From positions 1 to 36,760 of the forward strand of contig JAOZMC010000015.1 in the NCBI GenBank assembly GCA_029934475.1: a stretch of DNA of 36,760 nucleotides, given 5' to 3'. The DNA comes from Arcobacteraceae bacterium. Lineage in GTDB: Bacteria > Campylobacterota > Campylobacteria > Campylobacterales > Arcobacteraceae. The notes under the pieces are model-generated. The model was given only the letters and a program-made list of their open reading frames with translations. It had not been told where the DNA came from and made no database searches. Position 1 is the stretch's first letter; the number at the start of each line of letters is the position of its first letter. The position numbers and the translations under genes are program-made. This document shows positions 19,094 through 27,428 of the stretch, one piece after another.

Positions 19094-21506
19094 TTTTGAT
19101 CCTCATAGAGTTGCCCACTACGACAAGCGAGCTTATAGACATAGATATAGCTGCCACTAGAGGTATCACAAACCCAGCAACAGCAAGAGATATAGCAAAA
19201 ACATTGTAGCCCAAAGAGAAAAGAATATTTTGCTTGATAGTGCGAAAAACATTTCTACACAATTTTAAAGTTTCATATACAGATGTGATATTGCCATCTA
19301 TGAGCACGATATCACTCATCTGGACGGCTAGGTCGGTATCGTTGCCCATAGCTATGGCTATATCACTTTTGCCCATAGCTATAGCATCGTTGATGCCATC
19401 ACCTACCATGACAACTATTTTGTTTTGTTTTTTTAATCTATCTATGATATCTGCCTTGTCTGTAGGTGTCATAGAGCTATAAAAGGTCTCTATGCCTACT
19501 TTTTTGGCTATCTTTTCTACAGCTTTTGTGTTATCGCCACTACATATTATAGGATTTAGTCCTAGTTTTTTGATATCCTTTATAGTTTGAACTGCTCCTG
19601 TTTTTAGCATATCTTCAAGCTTGAAGCTACACACCACATCTTTATCAATAGCAAAGACAAACACAGATGTCTCCTGCTTCATATCAAACTTGATATTCAT
19701 ATCGTTTATAAACTCTATATTGCCACCATATATCTTGTGCTCTTTGTAGCTCGCTTTCAAGCCTCTAGCTTCTATATGCTTGATATCCTCTAGTCGATAT
19801 TCGTGTGAAACTTGTTTATTTGCTTGTAGATATTTCACTATAGCTTTGCTTATGGGGTGGTTGGATTTTTGCACCAAAGCATATAACATATCTATATCAA
19901 AATCTTTATACTTGATATATCCTACAACTTGTGGTTTTGCTTGTGTTATAGTGCCTGTCTTATCCAAAACTACTGTAGTAGCTTTTGCTATAGTTTCGAG
20001 ATGAGATGCACTTTTAAATAATATTCCTCTTTTTGATCCTACTGCAACTCCGACTAGTGTGGCTACAGGAGTTGCCAACCCTAGTGCACAAGGACAAGCG
20101 ATGACAGTCACAGATATGGCGACTATCAAAGCATATTCAAATGAACCAACAAAAACATACCAACCCACAAATGTAACTATAGATATAGCCAGCACAACAA
20201 ATGAAAAATACCCAGATATAGTATCTGCTACTTTTTCAATATTTGGCTTTTTGGTAAGTGACTGCTCTAAAATAGATGCGATACTTTGTATGGTCGAGTT
20301 GGCAACATCTTTGGTGGTCTTGTATATTATGGTGCTATCAAGACACAAGGTTCCGCTGAATATTTTGTCATTGTGTTTTTTATATACTGGGAGTGATTCT
20401 CCGCTTATAGATGATTCGTCAAAACTTGCACCACCTTTTTGCATTACACCATCTATGGCTATCTTCTCTCCAGCTTTTACCTCTATAATATCGCCTATAT
20501 TTATCTGTGTAGTATCTACCAAACTACTCTTGCCATCCCTTATGACAGTCACATGCTCTGGTATAGACGATGATATATTGTCCAGAGAATCTACTGCATT
20601 TTTCTTGCTCAATACCTCTAGATATTTTCCAATAAATATAAAAGTGATAACCATAGTCACAGAATCAAAATAAACTTCGCCTGTGCATGTGATAGTCGCA
20701 TATATGGAGTATAGATATGCACTCAATGTGCCAAACACTATCAATATATCCATATTTGCAATCTTGTTTTTAAAAGCAAAATATGCACCTCTAAAATAGG
20801 GCCAACCTGTCCAAAAAAGTGCAGGAGTAGCCAACACAAACTCTGCTATATTTAGTATGGTTTTGGCACTTTGTGTTATACCAGAAAAGTAGCCTGCATA
20901 TTGTGCTACTGCTATCCACATGATATTCATGGTGCAAAATATACCTACGACTAGACGAGCATAATAATCCTTTCTAGCTTTGTTGGCTTTTGCTTCACCT
21001 GTTTTTGTATCATAAGCATAGGCATCATATCCTATAGATTGGATTTTTGCTATGATTTGTGATAGCTTTATATCGTCTGGATTCCAAACTATTTTTGCTT
21101 TGTAGTTGGTATAATTGATATTTGCTTTGATGATTCCGTCTGTTTTGTGTAATATTTTTTCATTTAGCCATACACAAGCACTACAGTGAATGCCCTCCAT
21201 GATCAACGATATCTCACAGTATCCATCATTTTTAGTCACATATTTTTTGGCAAAACCTTCTGTGTCAAACTTCGCGAGGTCTTGATCTTTGTCTATAACT
21301 GAGTGTAGTTTGTTTTTGCCAAGTTTATCATAAAAGCTATCCAGATGACCATCTTTTAGTATATGATACACAGTTTGACAACCCTTGCAACAAAAAAACA
21401 ACTCATTATCATAACTATTTTGTGATATCATCACATCTTTTGCAAACTCTAAATTACAATGCGAACAAGGTATTATGACATCGTCATAATGTTGCATAGG
21501 TCTCAA
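19086..21506 (-). CDS. ccoI: copper-translocating P1B-type ATPase CcoI/FixI
   Basis: 806 residues. The N-terminal 45 residues are cysteine-rich (C14, C17, C39, C40, C43), the metal-binding extension seen in FixI-type ATPases; the HMA domain has C108-S-A-C111 (GIHCSACVW). Eight helices follow, with the CPC motif in VIACPCALGLATP, the phosphorylated Asp in DKTGT, and GDGIND in the hinge. CcoI exports copper across the inner membrane for delivery to cbb3 oxidase. It overlaps fixH by 23 bases at the ATG used here; an in-frame ATG nine bases later is an equal candidate. Flanked by fixH and ccoS as in classic FixGHIS clusters. Confidence 0.95.
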   Translation of the reverse strand: MRPMQHYDDVIIPCSHCNLEFAKDVMISQNSYDNELFFCCKGCQTVYHILKDGHLDSFYDKLGKNKLHSVIDKDQDLAKFDTEGFAKKYVTKNDGYCEISLIMEGIHCSACVWLNEKILHKTDGIIKANINYTNYKAKIVWNPDDIKLSQIIAKIQSIGYDAYAYDTKTGEAKANKARKDYYARLVVGIFCTMNIMWIAVAQYAGYFSGITQSAKTILNIAEFVLATPALFWTGWPYFRGAYFAFKNKIANMDILIVFGTLSAYLYSIYATITCTGEVYFDSVTMVITFIFIGKYLEVLSKKNAVDSLDNISSSIPEHVTVIRDGKSSLVDTTQINIGDIIEVKAGEKIAIDGVMQKGGASFDESSISGESLPVYKKHNDKIFSGTLCLDSTIIYKTTKDVANSTIQSIASILEQSLTKKPNIEKVADTISGYFSFVVLAISIVTFVGWYVFVGSFEYALIVAISVTVIACPCALGLATPVATLVGVAVGSKRGILFKSASHLETIAKATTVVLDKTGTITQAKPQVVGYIKYKDFDIDMLYALVQKSNHPISKAIVKYLQANKQVSHEYRLEDIKHIEARGLKASYKEHKIYGGNIEFINDMNIKFDMKQETSVFVFAIDKDVVCSFKLEDMLKTGAVQTIKDIKKLGLNPIICSGDNTKAVEKIAKKVGIETFYSSMTPTDKADIIDRLKKQNKIVVMVGDGINDAIAMGKSDIAIAMGNDTDLAVQMSDIVLIDGNITSVYETLKLCRNVFRTIKQNILFSLGYNVFAISLAVAGFVIPLVAAISMSISSLVVVGNSMRIKNG

Positions 21507-21987
21507 CTCTTGTGAAGCTTACCAGTTTGCCTATGCTGACTTTTAGCATTATTTGCCATCTGCCTTTCTTTTCTATATCAAATGGCTCAAATATATAATA
21601 CCCATCTTTTATCTCTAAGACAGATAGTTTTTTGTCAAATTTCGATGAATCTGGTCTCGTGACAAGTAGTTCTAATTTTGCATTTTTTACATCTTTTGTG
21701 GTGACTTTGTCTGCTATTTTTATTTTTATATTGTTATTTTTTTTGATAAATTTCTTTTTCATATCTATCTGTATAGTGTATTTTTTGTCAAACTTTTTTT
21801 GTGATATTATAATTTTATTTATATTTTCATCTACATCTTGGTATTTTTCTAGATAAAAGTCGTCCATATAGACAGGATTTTTCAACGATATCATGATCAT
21901 ATCAATACACAATACAGCTACAGCGACTATACTTATAGTTATACCATAAGGCCAAAAGTTAAATCTCTTTTTGTTGTTATTTTGCAA
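21484..21987 (-). CDS. fixH: FixH/CcoH-like cbb3 oxidase assembly protein
   Basis: 167 residues. A single N-terminal helix (FWPYGITISIVAVAVLCIDMIMISL) is followed by a YMDDFYLEKYQDVDENINK segment and a periplasmic beta domain rich in Lys, the FixH layout. CcoH/FixH binds the oxidase during assembly and is needed for its stability. It lies between the TPM-like gene (11-base overlap) and ccoI (overlap), in the usual FixH-FixI-FixS order. Sequence conservation in this family is low, so the call leans on context. Confidence 0.82.
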   Translation of the reverse strand: MQNNNKKRFNFWPYGITISIVAVAVLCIDMIMISLKNPVYMDDFYLEKYQDVDENINKIIISQKKFDKKYTIQIDMKKKFIKKNNNIKIKIADKVTTKDVKNAKLELLVTRPDSSKFDKKLSVLEIKDGYYIFEPFDIEKKGRWQIMLKVSIGKLVSFTRVETYATL

Positions 21988-22579
21988 ATTTTCGCCTCAT
22001 GAACATTATAAAAAATATCAAAATAATAAGATAAAAAATAGCTCGTATGAAACTGACAATATTTCTATTTGTATTGCCGATGGCAGAATCCAGCTCTATG
22101 TTGTGATAGCTAGCTACTTGCTCTGCTATATCAGCATAGCCATTTAAAAGTGCGGCACTTATAGTATCATCTACTTTTATGCTAGTTTTTACTTTTGTTA
22201 CAAGTATTGGGATGATCGAACCACCTATGGGGCTTAGCACTTGCTCTTTGTCAAATTTTTTGCACTGCTCTTTTGAGCAAACTATCTCTATCTTTTTTTC
22301 TTTTTTTGCAAAGACCATAGCTATATATGGTTTGTCTAGCTTTTTTGTAAGTTTTTTTGAGTATTGAGTTATATTTTCAGAGTTTATATCATTTAAGATA
22401 TAGAGATACAATGATATATCAGTTTTTTGCTTTAACTCTCGTGCCATCTCTTGTAGCTTGAGAACTGTTTTTTGATTTATTATATTTTCATCGTGTATAA
22501 ATTTCGCATCAACACAGGTCGTCAAAAACAGAAACAATACGACAAGATATGCCATATTGTTTTTCATCGTTTTAGGCAA
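21977..22579 (-). CDS. TPM-domain-like membrane-anchored periplasmic protein in the cco operon
   Basis: 200 residues. A signal peptide (NMAYLVVLFLFLTTCVDA), a domain of about 130 residues with LQEMARELKQKTDISLYLYI (residues 42-61) that resembles the first helix-strand of TPM domains (YgcG/Psb32 type), then one C-terminal membrane helix and a basic MRRKFAK end. TPM domains occur in assembly or repair factors such as plant Psb32. A role in oxidase assembly or repair is inferred from its place between DUF4006/microprotein genes and fixH. The start used is TTG, preceded by AGGGTGAT, a good SD; an ATG 12 bases later is the alternative. Confidence 0.65.
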   Translation of the reverse strand: MPKTMKNNMAYLVVLFLFLTTCVDAKFIHDENIINQKTVLKLQEMARELKQKTDISLYLYILNDINSENITQYSKKLTKKLDKPYIAMVFAKKEKKIEIVCSKEQCKKFDKEQVLSPIGGSIIPILVTKVKTSIKVDDTISAALLNGYADIAEQVASYHNIELDSAIGNTNRNIVSFIRAIFYLIILIFFIMFMRRKFAK

Positions 22580-22584
22580 CTATA

Positions 22585-22680
22585 TCACCCTACAAATAGA
22601 TGATTTGGTGTGACTACTGCCCACAATGTGACAGCAGCAGAAACTACTAGAGCCCATGCTATTATGACTTCAAGTTTCAT
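22585..22680 (-). CDS. 31-residue single-span membrane microprotein in the cco operon
   Basis: Small ORF read from ATG at 22680 to TGA at 22585. The SD AGGAG lies seven bases upstream, and the ATG overlaps the stop of the DUF4006 gene as ATGA, so it should be translated by coupling. The protein starts MKLEVIIAWALVVSAAVTLW and continues VVTPNHLFVG: one helix of about 20 residues with a short polar end. This size and topology are like other tiny oxidase subunits (CydX, CcoQ, CcoM/CcoH-like helices), which pack against the core. Function as a subunit or assembly factor is inferred from location and topology. Confidence 0.75.
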   Translation of the reverse strand: MKLEVIIAWALVVSAAVTLWAVVTPNHLFVG

Positions 22681-22892
22681 TGTTTTTCTCCTATGATCTT
22701 ATAGTGAGAAGCATTATTTTTGTTGATCATCTTTATATCTTGGATATTTTCTATCTTGTAAAATTTTGTCGCACTTTCTCGCTGAGCATCTATAGCCCAT
22801 ATAGTCAATCCAACTAAGATTGACAACAACAGAGTTGTCGCTATTAGCATCCCACTTATACCGTGTAGTGAAAAAATATTTCTTTTGTTCAT
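22677..22892 (-). CDS. DUF4006 family small membrane protein
   Basis: 71 residues with one membrane helix (GMLIATTLLLSILVGLTIWAI) after a short HGISG segment, then a polar periplasmic tail. It matches the DUF4006 family, which I know as a Campylobacterota protein sitting after ccoP. It follows ccoP by eight bases and overlaps the 31-residue ORF by four. Its role is unknown, but constant linkage to ccoNOQP points to oxidase assembly or an extra subunit. Confidence 0.8.
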   Translation of the reverse strand: MNKRNIFSLHGISGMLIATTLLLSILVGLTIWAIDAQRESATKFYKIENIQDIKMINKNNASHYKIIGEKQ

Positions 22893-22900
22893 AATTTCTC

Positions 22901-23728
22901 CTATTTTCCTATAGATAATATATAATTACCTACAGCTTCTTTTTGAATATCTGTCAATCTACCATCATCAAACTTTGGCATAGTGCCTATGTCTCCTATC
23001 TTGCCTCTGTTTAGCACCTCTGTGACAAATGCCGGTGTGCCATATGTGGTCAAGTTTGCACTCATACCTTCCATACCTTTGCCATCTGCTCCATGACATG
23101 CTACACATGCCGTATCAAACACCTCTTTGCCTTTTGGGTTGCCACTCATACCGTTTGCTACATATGCAGATACCGCTTTGATATCAGCTTCATCTGGCAC
23201 CAATCCGCCAGGCATATCACCCATAGTGTATCCCATGCCTTTTGAGCCATTTTTGACAACAAGTTCTATGCCTTTTGCTGTCCCCCATGTCTCAAAACTA
23301 GCTGCTTTGCCATCTATACCATCTGCAGCGATACCATGACAAGGAGCACATTGTAGCAGATAGACACCTTCGCCCATTCCCATCAATGTTTCTTTGTCTG
23401 GGTCTTTCCATTTTTGCGCAAAATGTTTGTTGTATGATTTGACCTCTTCGTTGTATTCGCCTATTTGTGAATATGAATTTACAGGATATCCTGCTACCAT
23501 ATACCAAACAGCCCAAACGATAGTCAATATATACACGACACCCCAGCCTGTAGGCACTTCGTTTTTATACTCACCTATTCCATCCCAATTGTCATCGGCT
23601 AGCTCACCTTCACTTTTGTCGTTTTTGATATTTTTGATATATTTGCCAACGACACCAACTGTGATCAAAACGATCGCAGCCGCACCTAGCAGGGCTAGCT
23701 GATTTATATTATCACTTAACCAGTTCAT
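22901..23728 (-). CDS. ccoP: cbb3-type cytochrome c oxidase subunit III (diheme CcoP)
   Basis: 275 residues. Two membrane helices (about 11-31 and 61-80, with IGEYKNEVPTGW between) are followed by two cytochrome c domains with CAPCH (127-131) and CVACH (208-212) and axial Met in GDMPGG (M172) and GTMPKF. It takes electrons from soluble cytochromes and passes them to CcoO. It overlaps ccoQ by 17 bases. Length is typical of Campylobacterota CcoP. Confidence 0.96.
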   Translation of the reverse strand: MNWLSDNINQLALLGAAAIVLITVGVVGKYIKNIKNDKSEGELADDNWDGIGEYKNEVPTGWGVVYILTIVWAVWYMVAGYPVNSYSQIGEYNEEVKSYNKHFAQKWKDPDKETLMGMGEGVYLLQCAPCHGIAADGIDGKAASFETWGTAKGIELVVKNGSKGMGYTMGDMPGGLVPDEADIKAVSAYVANGMSGNPKGKEVFDTACVACHGADGKGMEGMSANLTTYGTPAFVTEVLNRGKIGDIGTMPKFDDGRLTDIQKEAVGNYILSIGK

Positions 23729-23948
23729 TATTTACTCCATTTTTTGTTTTTAAAATACCATTTATAGGAGTTGAATCCAAAGCATCATCGAGAGCTAGCT
23801 TGGCATTTATCTCATAGTTTGTCAAGCCTTTTTTGTCGCTGTTGTATATATGATAAATATATGCATAAAACACAACGACAAGCAAGCCAGTAACTACTAC
23901 ATAAGCATATACTTGTATCTCTCTCAATCTCTCTATATCAAACTCCAT
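23712..23948 (-). CDS. ccoQ: cbb3-type cytochrome c oxidase subunit CcoQ
   Basis: 78 residues: one membrane helix (YAYVVVTGLLVVVFYAYIYHIY) then a polar tail, the CcoQ layout but slightly longer than the proteobacterial norm of 50-60. Located between ccoO and ccoP, with 10 bases to ccoO and a 17-base overlap with ccoP. CcoQ stabilises the interaction of CcoP with the CcoNO core. The call rests on topology and position, since CcoQ sequences are poorly conserved. Confidence 0.88.
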   Translation of the reverse strand: MEFDIERLREIQVYAYVVVTGLLVVVFYAYIYHIYNSDKKGLTNYEINAKLALDDALDSTPINGILKTKNGVNNELVK

Positions 23949-23958
23949 GATGGTATCC

Positions 23959-24624
23959 TTATTTTAAACTATTTAGATAAGCTATCAAAGCTACTATTTG
24001 TGGTATCTTTCCATCATCCACAAGCTGTTTGATACTCTTATTTTTCATATCTGCCGCTATCGCTTTGGCATCATCCAAAGCTCTCTTTTCTGCTTCGTCC
24101 AAAGTTCCTAGCTTTGGCATATGCTTTTCGTCATAAGGGACATTGAAAACTTTTTTTACAGTCAAAGCTTCTGCATATGCTGTCTGGATATCTGCCTCTT
24201 TTGTAAACATATGTGTATATGCAGGCATGATAGACCCCGGCACGACAGAAGTAGGATCTAGCATATGATTTTCATGCCAATCCGTAGTCCTGTAGTTGCC
24301 TACTCTCATGAGATCTGGACCTGTTCTTTTTGATCCCCACAAAAATGGTCTGTCATAAGCATACTCGCCACTTAAAGAATAAGCGCCATATCTGTCGGTC
24401 TCACTCTTAAATGGTCTTATCAACTGTGAGTGGCAGGCATTGCAACTATCTTTTATATATATATGTCTTCCTGCAAGCTCTAGCACTGTATATGGTTTTG
24501 TCCCCACTACAGGCTGTGCCGACTTAGCAAAATTTGGCAGTATTGTAATAATCCCTGCAAATGCTATAACCAAAAATACTCCAACCGCAAAAAAGAATGG
24601 ATTTTTTTCTAACCAATGAAACAT
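23959..24624 (-). CDS. ccoO: cbb3-type cytochrome c oxidase subunit II (monoheme CcoO)
   Basis: 221 residues. One N-terminal anchor helix (FFFAVGVFLVIAFAGIITILP) is followed by a cytochrome c domain with CNACH at 61-65 and the likely axial Met in GSIMPAY. Blocks GRHIYIKDSCNACH and SKRTGPDLMRVG are strongly CcoO-like. It passes electrons from CcoP to heme b in CcoN. It is 14 bases after ccoN and 10 before ccoQ. Confidence 0.96.
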   Translation of the reverse strand: MFHWLEKNPFFFAVGVFLVIAFAGIITILPNFAKSAQPVVGTKPYTVLELAGRHIYIKDSCNACHSQLIRPFKSETDRYGAYSLSGEYAYDRPFLWGSKRTGPDLMRVGNYRTTDWHENHMLDPTSVVPGSIMPAYTHMFTKEADIQTAYAEALTVKKVFNVPYDEKHMPKLGTLDEAEKRALDDAKAIAADMKNKSIKQLVDDGKIPQIVALIAYLNSLK

Positions 24625-24638
24625 CTTTTCGCCCTCCT

Positions 24639-26108
24639 TTATATTGCCATAGGTGAAGCAAATTGAGGTTCTTTCTCAATAACTTTACCAGATGAAAATG
24701 TTTTATACATATTGTATGCAAACATAAAAAACCCAACCAGATACAACAATCCACCTATACCCCGTAGAGTATAATAAGGATGCAAGATAGTAACTGTATC
24801 TATAAATGAATATGCTAGGTTTCCGTATTGGTCGCTAGCTCTCCACATCATGCCTTGTGTGATACCTGCTATCCACATGCTAGAAAAATAAAACACTATT
24901 CCTACTGTCTGTATCCAAAACTGTGATTCCATAAGTTTCTTGCTGTAGATCTCTCTTTTAAATACTCTAGGTGCCATATGAAATAGTGATGCTATGATCA
25001 TAAATCCAACCCAACCCAAAGTCCCATCGTGAACATGTCCAGGTATCCAATCAGTGAAGTGTGCTAGAGCATTTACAGATTTGATAGCTTGTATGGGACC
25101 TTCTATAGTAGAAAACATATAAAATGTAGATGCTAGTATCATAAACTTGATCAAAGGACTCTCTTGGACTTGATTCCACTCGCCTTTCATAGTCAAAAGC
25201 ATATTGATAGCAGATCCCCAAGATGGCAATATCAAAACCACCGAAAACACAGACCCCATAGTCTGTATCCAGTCAGGAACTGTAGAATAGAGCAAGTGGT
25301 GACCACCTGCCCAAAGATAGACAAACATCAATCCCCAAAATGAAGCCAGAGACAATTTATAAGAAAATATAGGTTGTCCTGATTCTTTTGGCAAGAAGTA
25401 GTAAATCATAGCTATGATAGGCACAGTAAATACAAATGCTACTGCATTGTGTCCGTACCACCACTGAACCAAGGCATCGTTTGTGCCTGCATACATAGAT
25501 ACAGAGTGAAGCCAGTCGCCATATCCGCCACTAGCAAAATATGTAGGGATAGCCATATTGTTAAACAGATAAAGCATAGCAACACCTAAAAATGTTGCTA
25601 TAAAATACCATATAGAGATATAAAGATTGTTCTCTCGTCTTATGCCTATGAGACCAAATATTCCCATACCCCACAAAACCCATACGACTACTATGGCTAT
25701 ATCTATAGGCCACTCAAACTCTGCATACTCTTTTGATGTAGTATATCCCATAAGCAATGTTACCACAGCAGCCAGCACAGCTATCACATATAACCAAAAC
25801 TGTAGCTTGCCTATCACCATGAGAAACTTTGACTCTGCCATAGATACTTTCAATACCCTTTGCCCTATGTAAAACCATGTAGCAAAAACACCACTAATAG
25901 TAAAACCAAATGCCACAGCATCTGTATGAAGTGGTCTTAGCCTTCCAAATGTGCTATACTCACCAGCTATATAGTTAAGCTGTGGGTATGCCATCTGAAA
26001 AGCGATAAGAACCCCTATCGTCATACCGATAATTCCGAAGACTATTGTTGTTATCATAAAATATTTAGCAACAGTATAGTCATACTTCAATACATTGTTA
26101 GATTGCAT
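24639..26108 (-). CDS. ccoN: cbb3-type cytochrome c oxidase subunit I (CcoN)
   Basis: 489 residues, twelve membrane helices. Heme and copper ligands are visible: an early His in LRPLHTDAVAFG, CuB ligands in WWYGHNAVAF and GGHHLLYSTVPDW, and the heme ligands in HFTDWIPGHVHDGTLGW. The Tyr cross-linked to a CuB His in cbb3 oxidases lies in the region STIEGPIQAIKSVNALAH. It reduces oxygen to water at high affinity, suited to microaerobic life. SD AAGGAG precedes the ATG. First gene of the ccoNOQP-DUF4006-microprotein-TPM-fixH-ccoI-ccoS operon. Confidence 0.97.
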   Translation of the reverse strand: MQSNNVLKYDYTVAKYFMITTIVFGIIGMTIGVLIAFQMAYPQLNYIAGEYSTFGRLRPLHTDAVAFGFTISGVFATWFYIGQRVLKVSMAESKFLMVIGKLQFWLYVIAVLAAVVTLLMGYTTSKEYAEFEWPIDIAIVVVWVLWGMGIFGLIGIRRENNLYISIWYFIATFLGVAMLYLFNNMAIPTYFASGGYGDWLHSVSMYAGTNDALVQWWYGHNAVAFVFTVPIIAMIYYFLPKESGQPIFSYKLSLASFWGLMFVYLWAGGHHLLYSTVPDWIQTMGSVFSVVLILPSWGSAINMLLTMKGEWNQVQESPLIKFMILASTFYMFSTIEGPIQAIKSVNALAHFTDWIPGHVHDGTLGWVGFMIIASLFHMAPRVFKREIYSKKLMESQFWIQTVGIVFYFSSMWIAGITQGMMWRASDQYGNLAYSFIDTVTILHPYYTLRGIGGLLYLVGFFMFAYNMYKTFSSGKVIEKEPQFASPMAI

Positions 26109-26196: not shown

Positions 26197-26928
26197 TTAA
26201 TTTGTTGAATTTGATTCAAATTCACAGCACTGAAGTATCGATTTCTCAGGATATTTTATATACTCAAACCCTTGATAAGCAGTCCATATACCAAACAATA
26301 CTACACTTATGGATGCTAACTTTATCATGTTGTTTCTCATCAAACTATTTTGAAACATACCTACGAAAAACCCCAAACCAAAAAGAGCAGGTATAGTGCT
26401 GATACCAAATATCAACATAACCAAAGCACCATAAAAAGCAGTAGCAGTGCTAGCAGAAGCTATAGCAAAAAAATAGACCAAACCACAAGGCAAAAGTCCA
26501 TTTAGCATACCTAGCACCAAAAAACTAAACAAACTTTTGTTATAAATATATTTACGAAAAAGTTTTTGATACCAGCCGTTTTTGTCTATGGAGTATTCTA
26601 TGATAGTCAAAAATTTTATCTTGCCAGAAAGTGAAACTCCTATCAAAATCATCATCAACCCAGCAAACAAAAGCAACAAACCATTTGTCAAGCTGTTAAA
26701 CATAGCCACACCGCCTAGATAGCCAAAAAGAGCTCCCAACAACACATATGTAAAAACTCTACCTATAGAGTAGAGCAGATGTGCAAAAGCTTGTGTTTGT
26801 TTGTTTGCGGTGCTGTCTATTTTTGTGCTAGTGTATGCTACGACTATGCCACCACACATACCTATACAGTGTCCAAAAGAACCCAAAAATGCTATGACCA
26901 CGATAGAAAAGATATTGACCGCTTCCAT
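26197..26928 (-). CDS. TauE/SafE- or DsbD-like inner-membrane protein (COG2836 type)
   Basis: 243 residues, six or seven membrane helices. It begins with SFGHCIGMCGG (C21, C25), the motif of COG2836 proteins annotated as sulfite exporter TauE/SafE or DsbD_2/UreH-like. These are often linked to cbb3 oxidase clusters, where a role in copper handling or cytochrome thiol chemistry is proposed. An NGLLPCGLVY motif in the middle is the second cysteine-containing helix, as in DsbD-like proteins. The C-terminus ends in CCEFESN, a possible metal site. Its ATG overlaps the stop of the NosL-like gene (TGATG). Sulfite export is unlikely on context; copper or redox work is favoured. Confidence 0.75.
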   Translation of the reverse strand: MEAVNIFSIVVIAFLGSFGHCIGMCGGIVVAYTSTKIDSTANKQTQAFAHLLYSIGRVFTYVLLGALFGYLGGVAMFNSLTNGLLLLFAGLMMILIGVSLSGKIKFLTIIEYSIDKNGWYQKLFRKYIYNKSLFSFLVLGMLNGLLPCGLVYFFAIASASTATAFYGALVMLIFGISTIPALFGLGFFVGMFQNSLMRNNMIKLASISVVLFGIWTAYQGFEYIKYPEKSILQCCEFESNSTN

Positions 26929-27428
26929 CAGTTATCTCCTAGCAGTTGATTTTTGATGAGTGGATTGCCTAGATGTTCGCCTCGTGCTACAAACAACAAC
27001 ATCGTCTCAAAATCAACAAATCCATCTTGATATTTTTCATAAGCACCAAAGCCATAATTCATAGGGGTCTTGTCTATCCTACTATACCAGAGTTTTTTTC
27101 CATTTTGCCATCTTTTGCCATCTTTTGTCATCGTCCATATGACGGCTTGGTCTTTAAATTGTTTCTCTTTTAGCCAGTTTGCCATACCGCCGTGATCATG
27201 AAAAAACCAAGTTTTGCCACCAGGTGAAACAACTTGCGATGCATATGTAGTGTCATCTATGATCATACCACAATCACTATCTTGAAAGTGGTTTAGCACT
27301 ATATGTATGGGCTTTTTGTCATGATTTCCTTCATAAACTACTGTCATCTTTGTATTTTGTGATATAGTTGTAAACACCACAGCCACAGCGACTATAAATA
27401 GAAACAAAAAACCAAACTTACCTAGCAT
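26928..27428 (-). CDS. NosL-like periplasmic protein, possible copper chaperone
   Basis: 166 residues with an N-terminal helix (FGFLFLFIVAVAVVFTTI) that anchors it or acts as signal. The core reads DSDCGMIIDDTTYASQVVSPGG then FFHDHGGMANWL (C53, M55, H77, H79, M82). NosL, a copper(I)-binding lipoprotein, has CGMxI...A-Q and F-D-D-x-G-C-M-x-x-WL in the same order, so the match is good although the lipobox and second cysteine are missing. Placed between ccoG and the DsbD/TauE-like gene, it is a good candidate for copper delivery to cbb3 oxidase. No nos genes are in the window. Confidence 0.65.
   Translation of the reverse strand: MLGKFGFLFLFIVAVAVVFTTISQNTKMTVVYEGNHDKKPIHIVLNHFQDSDCGMIIDDTTYASQVVSPGGKTWFFHDHGGMANWLKEKQFKDQAVIWTMTKDGKRWQNGKKLWYSRIDKTPMNYGFGAYEKYQDGFVDFETMLLFVARGEHLGNPLIKNQLLGDN

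Follow-up and report, generated by a model that had tools for sequence, protein, structure and literature searches.

The cco operon of the window

The window, by which we mean the whole stretch of 36,760 nucleotides analysed here, carries on one strand the genes ccoN, ccoO, ccoQ, ccoP, ccoX, ccoY, ccoZ and ccoH in this order, followed by a P-type-ATPase-like ORF and ccoS. The product of ccoN (24639-26108, minus strand, as for all genes given below) matches cbb3 subunit I chains of the PDB with an E value of 1e-140, and ccoO (23959-24624) was assigned from its ORF, the operon order and an iterative HMM. The next genes are ccoQ (23712-23948; TIGR02736 / FixQ) and ccoP (22901-23728), which by domain match encodes the dihaem cytochrome c of the FixP type. 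Domain matches likewise identify ccoX (22677-22892; DUF4006, PF13179, E 7e-29), ccoZ (21977-22579; TPM domain) and ccoH (21484-21987; FixH family), whose Campylobacter jejuni counterparts are cj1486c, cj1484c and cj1483c respectively. We read the large P-type-ATPase-like ORF past ccoH as ccoI-like. A 166-aa ORF at 26928-27428 (minus strand), upstream of a DsbD-like gene, is without a Pfam match.

The original prediction concerned a microprotein with a single membrane helix, encoded between the DUF4006 gene and the TPM gene. The ORF is found exactly where it was proposed, at 22585-22680 (minus strand), directly 5' of ccoZ, and encodes the 31 residues MKLEVIIAWALVVSAAVTLWAVVTPNHLFVG. Its ATG (22680-22678) lies on the TGA stop codon of the DUF4006 gene (22679-22677), confirming the proposed ATGA overlap. 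The Shine-Dalgarno spacing was also correctly described: an AGGAG (22688-22692, minus strand) stands 7 nt 5' of the ATG, and an SD-like motif is present in 194 of 199 homologous loci. AlphaFold2 models residues 3-23 as a helix followed by a non-helical tail (mean pLDDT 85), the hydropathy maximum is 2.5, and the C-terminus carries a conserved TPNHLFVG. No family model of Pfam or NCBIfam matches the ORF.

Over 45 independent pairs of ccoY sequences, dN/dS in the coding frame is 0.115 (about 0.12), compared to values of 1.1 and 3.0 for the two alternative frames, and pN is lower than pS in all 45 pairs. The ORF is a genuine gene under strong purifying selection on its frame, and the single-helix microprotein of the original prediction is upheld by the helix model, the hydropathy and the dN/dS. 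A short ORF that overlaps ccoX by 4 bases and lies directly 5' of ccoZ could also act through its translation only, as a coupling or leader element that tunes ccoZ expression whatever its product. We regard this as very improbable given the strong selection at the amino-acid level, the conserved C-terminal motif, the occurrence of the -4 overlap in just 18 of the 199 loci, and the residue-level coevolution of CcoY with CcoP described below.

The gene is ccoY

A study of C. jejuni published in 2021 named ccoX (cj1486c, DUF4006), ccoY (cj1485c), ccoZ (cj1484c, TPM) and ccoH (cj1483c), and described Cj1485/CcoY as a protein of 33 residues with one TM helix (PMC8267372). Four deletion and screening primers for cj1483c-cj1486c from that work (PMC8267372) match one of our sampled genomes exactly (loci L023/L117). 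The ORF in the slot between ccoX and ccoZ of this genome encodes the 33-aa MSKALEYLIVIGLVAAAAITAWSVLTVNHLHIG, fitting the published description of Cj1485, and the window protein is 48 % identical to it (alignment A2). The window ORF is therefore almost certainly ccoY, the ortholog of Cj1485. The two proteins share the slot within ccoNOQP-XYZ-H, the length class, the central TM helix and a related C-terminal motif (VNHLHIG in C. jejuni, PNHLFVG in the window), and differ by residue-level divergence only. Other lineages have tails of their own, such as D[PSA]TRVFVG in Arcobacter and PNxFLxLV in Helicobacter.

The microprotein is not an unknown one: Cj1485/CcoY had already received its name, and its deletion had shown that Cco activity depends on it in part (PMC8267372). 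Deletion of ccoX or ccoH abolishes Cco activity in C. jejuni, and deletion of ccoY or ccoZ lowers it without abolishing it (PMC8267372). What is already known is thus the gene and its C. jejuni phenotype; what is added here is its near-universality, the orthologs of Helicobacter and a predicted binding site on CcoP. The idea that gene callers with a minimum length would miss the gene is overstated: 31 aa is not obviously too short, although 62 of the 199 family members have only 29 aa. The C. jejuni ortholog carries an annotation (cj1485c).

Several small oxidase proteins invite comparison. The cbb3 oxidase of Pseudomonas stutzeri has an accessory protein, CcoM, of a few tens of residues with one TM helix, and deletion of CcoM reportedly affects assembly or stability of the enzyme. 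The window CcoY resembles it in size, in its single helix and in enzyme class, a likeness of kind. Profile A1, our first CcoY profile, matched no PDB chain at E<=10, a search in which 31 positions give little power with regard to CcoM. CydX and CioY are likewise single-TM microproteins from oxidase operons, but they belong to the bd-type enzyme family and to another operon, whereas the neighbours of the window gene are cco genes. No CydX model of Pfam or NCBIfam matches the window ORF and we rejected CydX homology; of the proposed resemblance to CydX and CcoM the likeness of kind stands. CcoQ / FixQ is also a small single-TM cbb3 subunit linked to CcoP; it is encoded separately at 23712-23948, and CcoY matches neither FixQ nor TIGR02736.

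Distribution across Campylobacterota

To estimate how widely ccoY is distributed, we examined 397 sampled Campylobacterota genomes, 380 of which have ccoX (DUF4006). Profile A1 missed the Helicobacteraceae. Inspection of the Helicobacter-type loci (L107-L116, L125, L126 and others) revealed divergent CcoY proteins of 33-41 aa after DUF4006, for example MKFTTLEKILALMVVVTILMTIVISFVPNLFLFST. An ortholog was present in every Helicobacter-type slot inspected, and a loss of CcoY in Helicobacter was therefore rejected. With the Helicobacter forms added, the profile matches 379 of the 380 ccoX-bearing genomes; the 380th (G285) has an unmistakable CcoY, MIKYMDKILIACMVFSAIAAMYLSITKEHLLYVG, in the slot. 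CcoY is thus found in 380/380 ccoX-bearing genomes, divergent Helicobacter forms included, a tally that gauges completeness and not independent discovery since the profile was built partly from these genomes. The slot position of the profile matches was checked in the loci read, a subset of the 380.

Among the 17 genomes without ccoX, 15 also lack ccoN, and in the other two the operon is cut off by the end of the contig, just past ccoP or within ccoN. A weak profile match (2.7e-4) in G300, which has neither ccoX nor ccoN, was treated as chance. For H. pylori, none of the genes flanking the ccoY slot was found in the full-text literature under the locus tags tried.

Of the 201 loci with sufficient sequence, some of which are not independent of one another, 199 have an ORF of 29-41 aa that matches the family profile directly 3' of DUF4006, far more than chance would give. 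Both exceptions come from one genome, which has an inserted ccoG with the ORF behind it. The ORF is conserved between the DUF4006 and TPM/fixH genes, where the original prediction had proposed to look for it; it is intact in relatives sharing the operon, and the claim stands.

Families f8 and f11 have an insert of about 1.5 kb between ccoX and ccoY (L118, L309, L275, L361, L362). In L118, the locus examined closely, the insert is ccoG; in both families ccoY still adjoins ccoZ. Neither these families nor G285 proved to be true absences of CcoY once the loci were inspected. Genome G218 (locus L120), from the genus of the window, has ccoNOQPXY, and its contig shows nothing like ccoZ or ccoH 3' of ccoY. 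With ccoY adjoining ccoZ past the inserts and ccoX in G218, its behaviour is that of an independent gene that has been retained.

Coevolution with CcoP

We looked for the partner of CcoY in 220 complete operons, a set of low effective depth (Neff 124 at 90 % and 46 at 80 % identity), by pairing CcoY with every other subunit in turn in a mean-field direct-coupling analysis. The top coupling joins CcoY column 19 to CcoP column 71, with a z of 12 (13 with 80 % reweighting), compared to within-clade shuffle maxima of 4.6-8.0 for CcoY couplings. Among the next pairs are 23-80, 12-67 and 16-70. On the CcoP side all of these lie in the second TM helix (TM2, residues about 60-83; 23480-23551, minus strand) or at its end. 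Pair 22-41 reaches into a cytoplasmic loop and is off register. The predicted residue pairs are CcoY V17 with CcoP V74, A21 with V83 and A10 with I70. For CcoN, CcoO, CcoQ, CcoX, CcoH and CcoZ the peaks have a z of 4.6-6.7, within the shuffle level, and we rejected these subunits as partners of CcoY.

In a helix-register scan over all subunits, devised after the first coupling result was known, each of the top 7 of 2,732 registers is CcoP TM2 in parallel orientation (offset 51-57). The score of the register is 8.78, compared to a maximum of 7.61 in 60 shuffles. This parallel register still fills ranks 1-3 when the strongest column (column 19) is left out, and it is seen again in disjoint genome sets; in one of the smaller subsets, the odd clusters (90 genomes), pair 19-71 ranks only fourth. 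Co-change mapped on a CcoN+CcoO tree ranks the three key CcoY-CcoP pairs 1, 3 and 4 of 31,204; after correction for branch rates the ranks are 1, 29 and 18, and no single p value passes strict correction.

CcoH and CcoN served as a positive control for the method: their strongest couplings lie in CcoN TM9 (hydropathy-based TM numbering), and a contact of CcoH with CcoN TMH9 has been reported in Rhodobacter capsulatus (PMC7876108). Taken together, the coevolution results and their controls suggest that the CcoY helix packs against CcoP TM2 in a parallel register.

A possible role for CcoY

Because the haem domains of CcoP are periplasmic, TM2 must start on the cytoplasmic side and end on the periplasmic one, and a helix parallel to it would have its N-terminus inside and its C-terminus outside. 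On this sequence-based evidence we consider it probable that CcoY is a small structural subunit of the cbb3 oxidase that sits on CcoP TM2 and stabilises the complex or assists its assembly. With slightly less assurance, we favour a mechanism in which the CcoY helix would span the inner membrane N-in/C-out and pack parallel to TM2 of the dihaem subunit CcoP. There it may stabilise CcoP in the complex or help its assembly, and its conserved tail, TPNHLFVG, would reach the periplasm close to the haem domain of CcoP. The extra cbb3 subunit originally proposed is accordingly worded here as the most likely reading of the operon linkage, the co-occurrence and the coevolution with CcoP.

Two observations weigh against a resident subunit: the deletion phenotype is partial, and mass spectrometry of C. 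jejuni did not list CcoY. Both would fit a factor that binds CcoP or a CcoQP sub-complex via CcoP TM2 during biogenesis and then leaves. Such a factor predicts the identical coevolution with CcoP, and the linkage of ccoY with ccoZ and ccoH is consistent with it. However, a universal, operon-bound protein this small resembles the resident microproteins of other oxidases. CcoY is absent from the subunits detected by mass spectrometry in the BN-PAGE bands of C. jejuni, where a peptide of this kind is hard to see (PMC8267372), and the absence of a hydrophobic peptide of 33 residues is weak evidence. We consider a transient assembly factor unlikely, though it deserves to be kept in mind beside the resident subunit.

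The face of CcoP to which CcoY may bind raises the question of the respiratory supercomplex. Across Campylobacterota, CcoP TM2 itself coevolves with CcoN TM8 (column 70 x column 288, z 13.8), a coupling usable as a model restraint. In R. capsulatus, CcoN TMH8/9 and the CcoP TMH form the side of cbb3 that faces bc1 in an engineered supercomplex (PMC7876108). CcoZ of C. jejuni runs in a single BN-PAGE band together with Qcr subunits (PMC8267372), and ccoY is immediately 5' of ccoZ. It is conceivable from these data that CcoY serves as a linker on the CcoP TM2 face that docks cytochrome bc and, together with CcoZ, couples Qcr to Cco. The ccoY deletion phenotype was, however, measured with artificial donors (ascorbate/TMPD) that bypass Qcr (PMC8267372), and G218 retains ccoY without ccoZ or ccoH after it on the contig; we find such a linker less likely still than a transient assembly factor. 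The broader proposal, that CcoY is an obligate phylum-specific cbb3 subunit, Helicobacter included, placed at the complex III face of CcoP TM2 and aiding a bc-cbb3 supercomplex, appears doubtful to about the same degree as the assembly factor.

The coevolution with CcoP yields a concrete prediction, namely CcoY V17 beside CcoP V74, for a role that the discoverers of CcoY listed as an open question. PDB searches returned no homologous solved structure for CcoY, no convincing relatives of CcoX or CcoZ, and no structure containing CcoX, CcoY or CcoZ. A subunit of about 30 residues that is co-present with the enzyme and has no Pfam or NCBIfam model would easily be omitted from models and purifications. 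Helicobacter, Campylobacter and vent Campylobacterota have the cbb3 oxidase as their high-affinity oxygen enzyme, and a role of CcoY in the supercomplex, if true, would concern microaerophilic pathogens as well as vent bacteria.

Placement of the window operon

The CcoN of the window and its CcoY tail PNHLFVG stand apart from those of other Arcobacteraceae, including G218 of the same genus (tail DPSRIYIG). Among the loci compared, which include L120 and L128, the placement of the window CcoN is not settled, the nearest sequences being those of Sulfurospirillum. A tree that holds the Arcobacteraceae CcoN together is rejected at the borderline (p-AU 0.049, or 0.087 with G401), and a replacement of the cco operon in the lineage of the window is possible.
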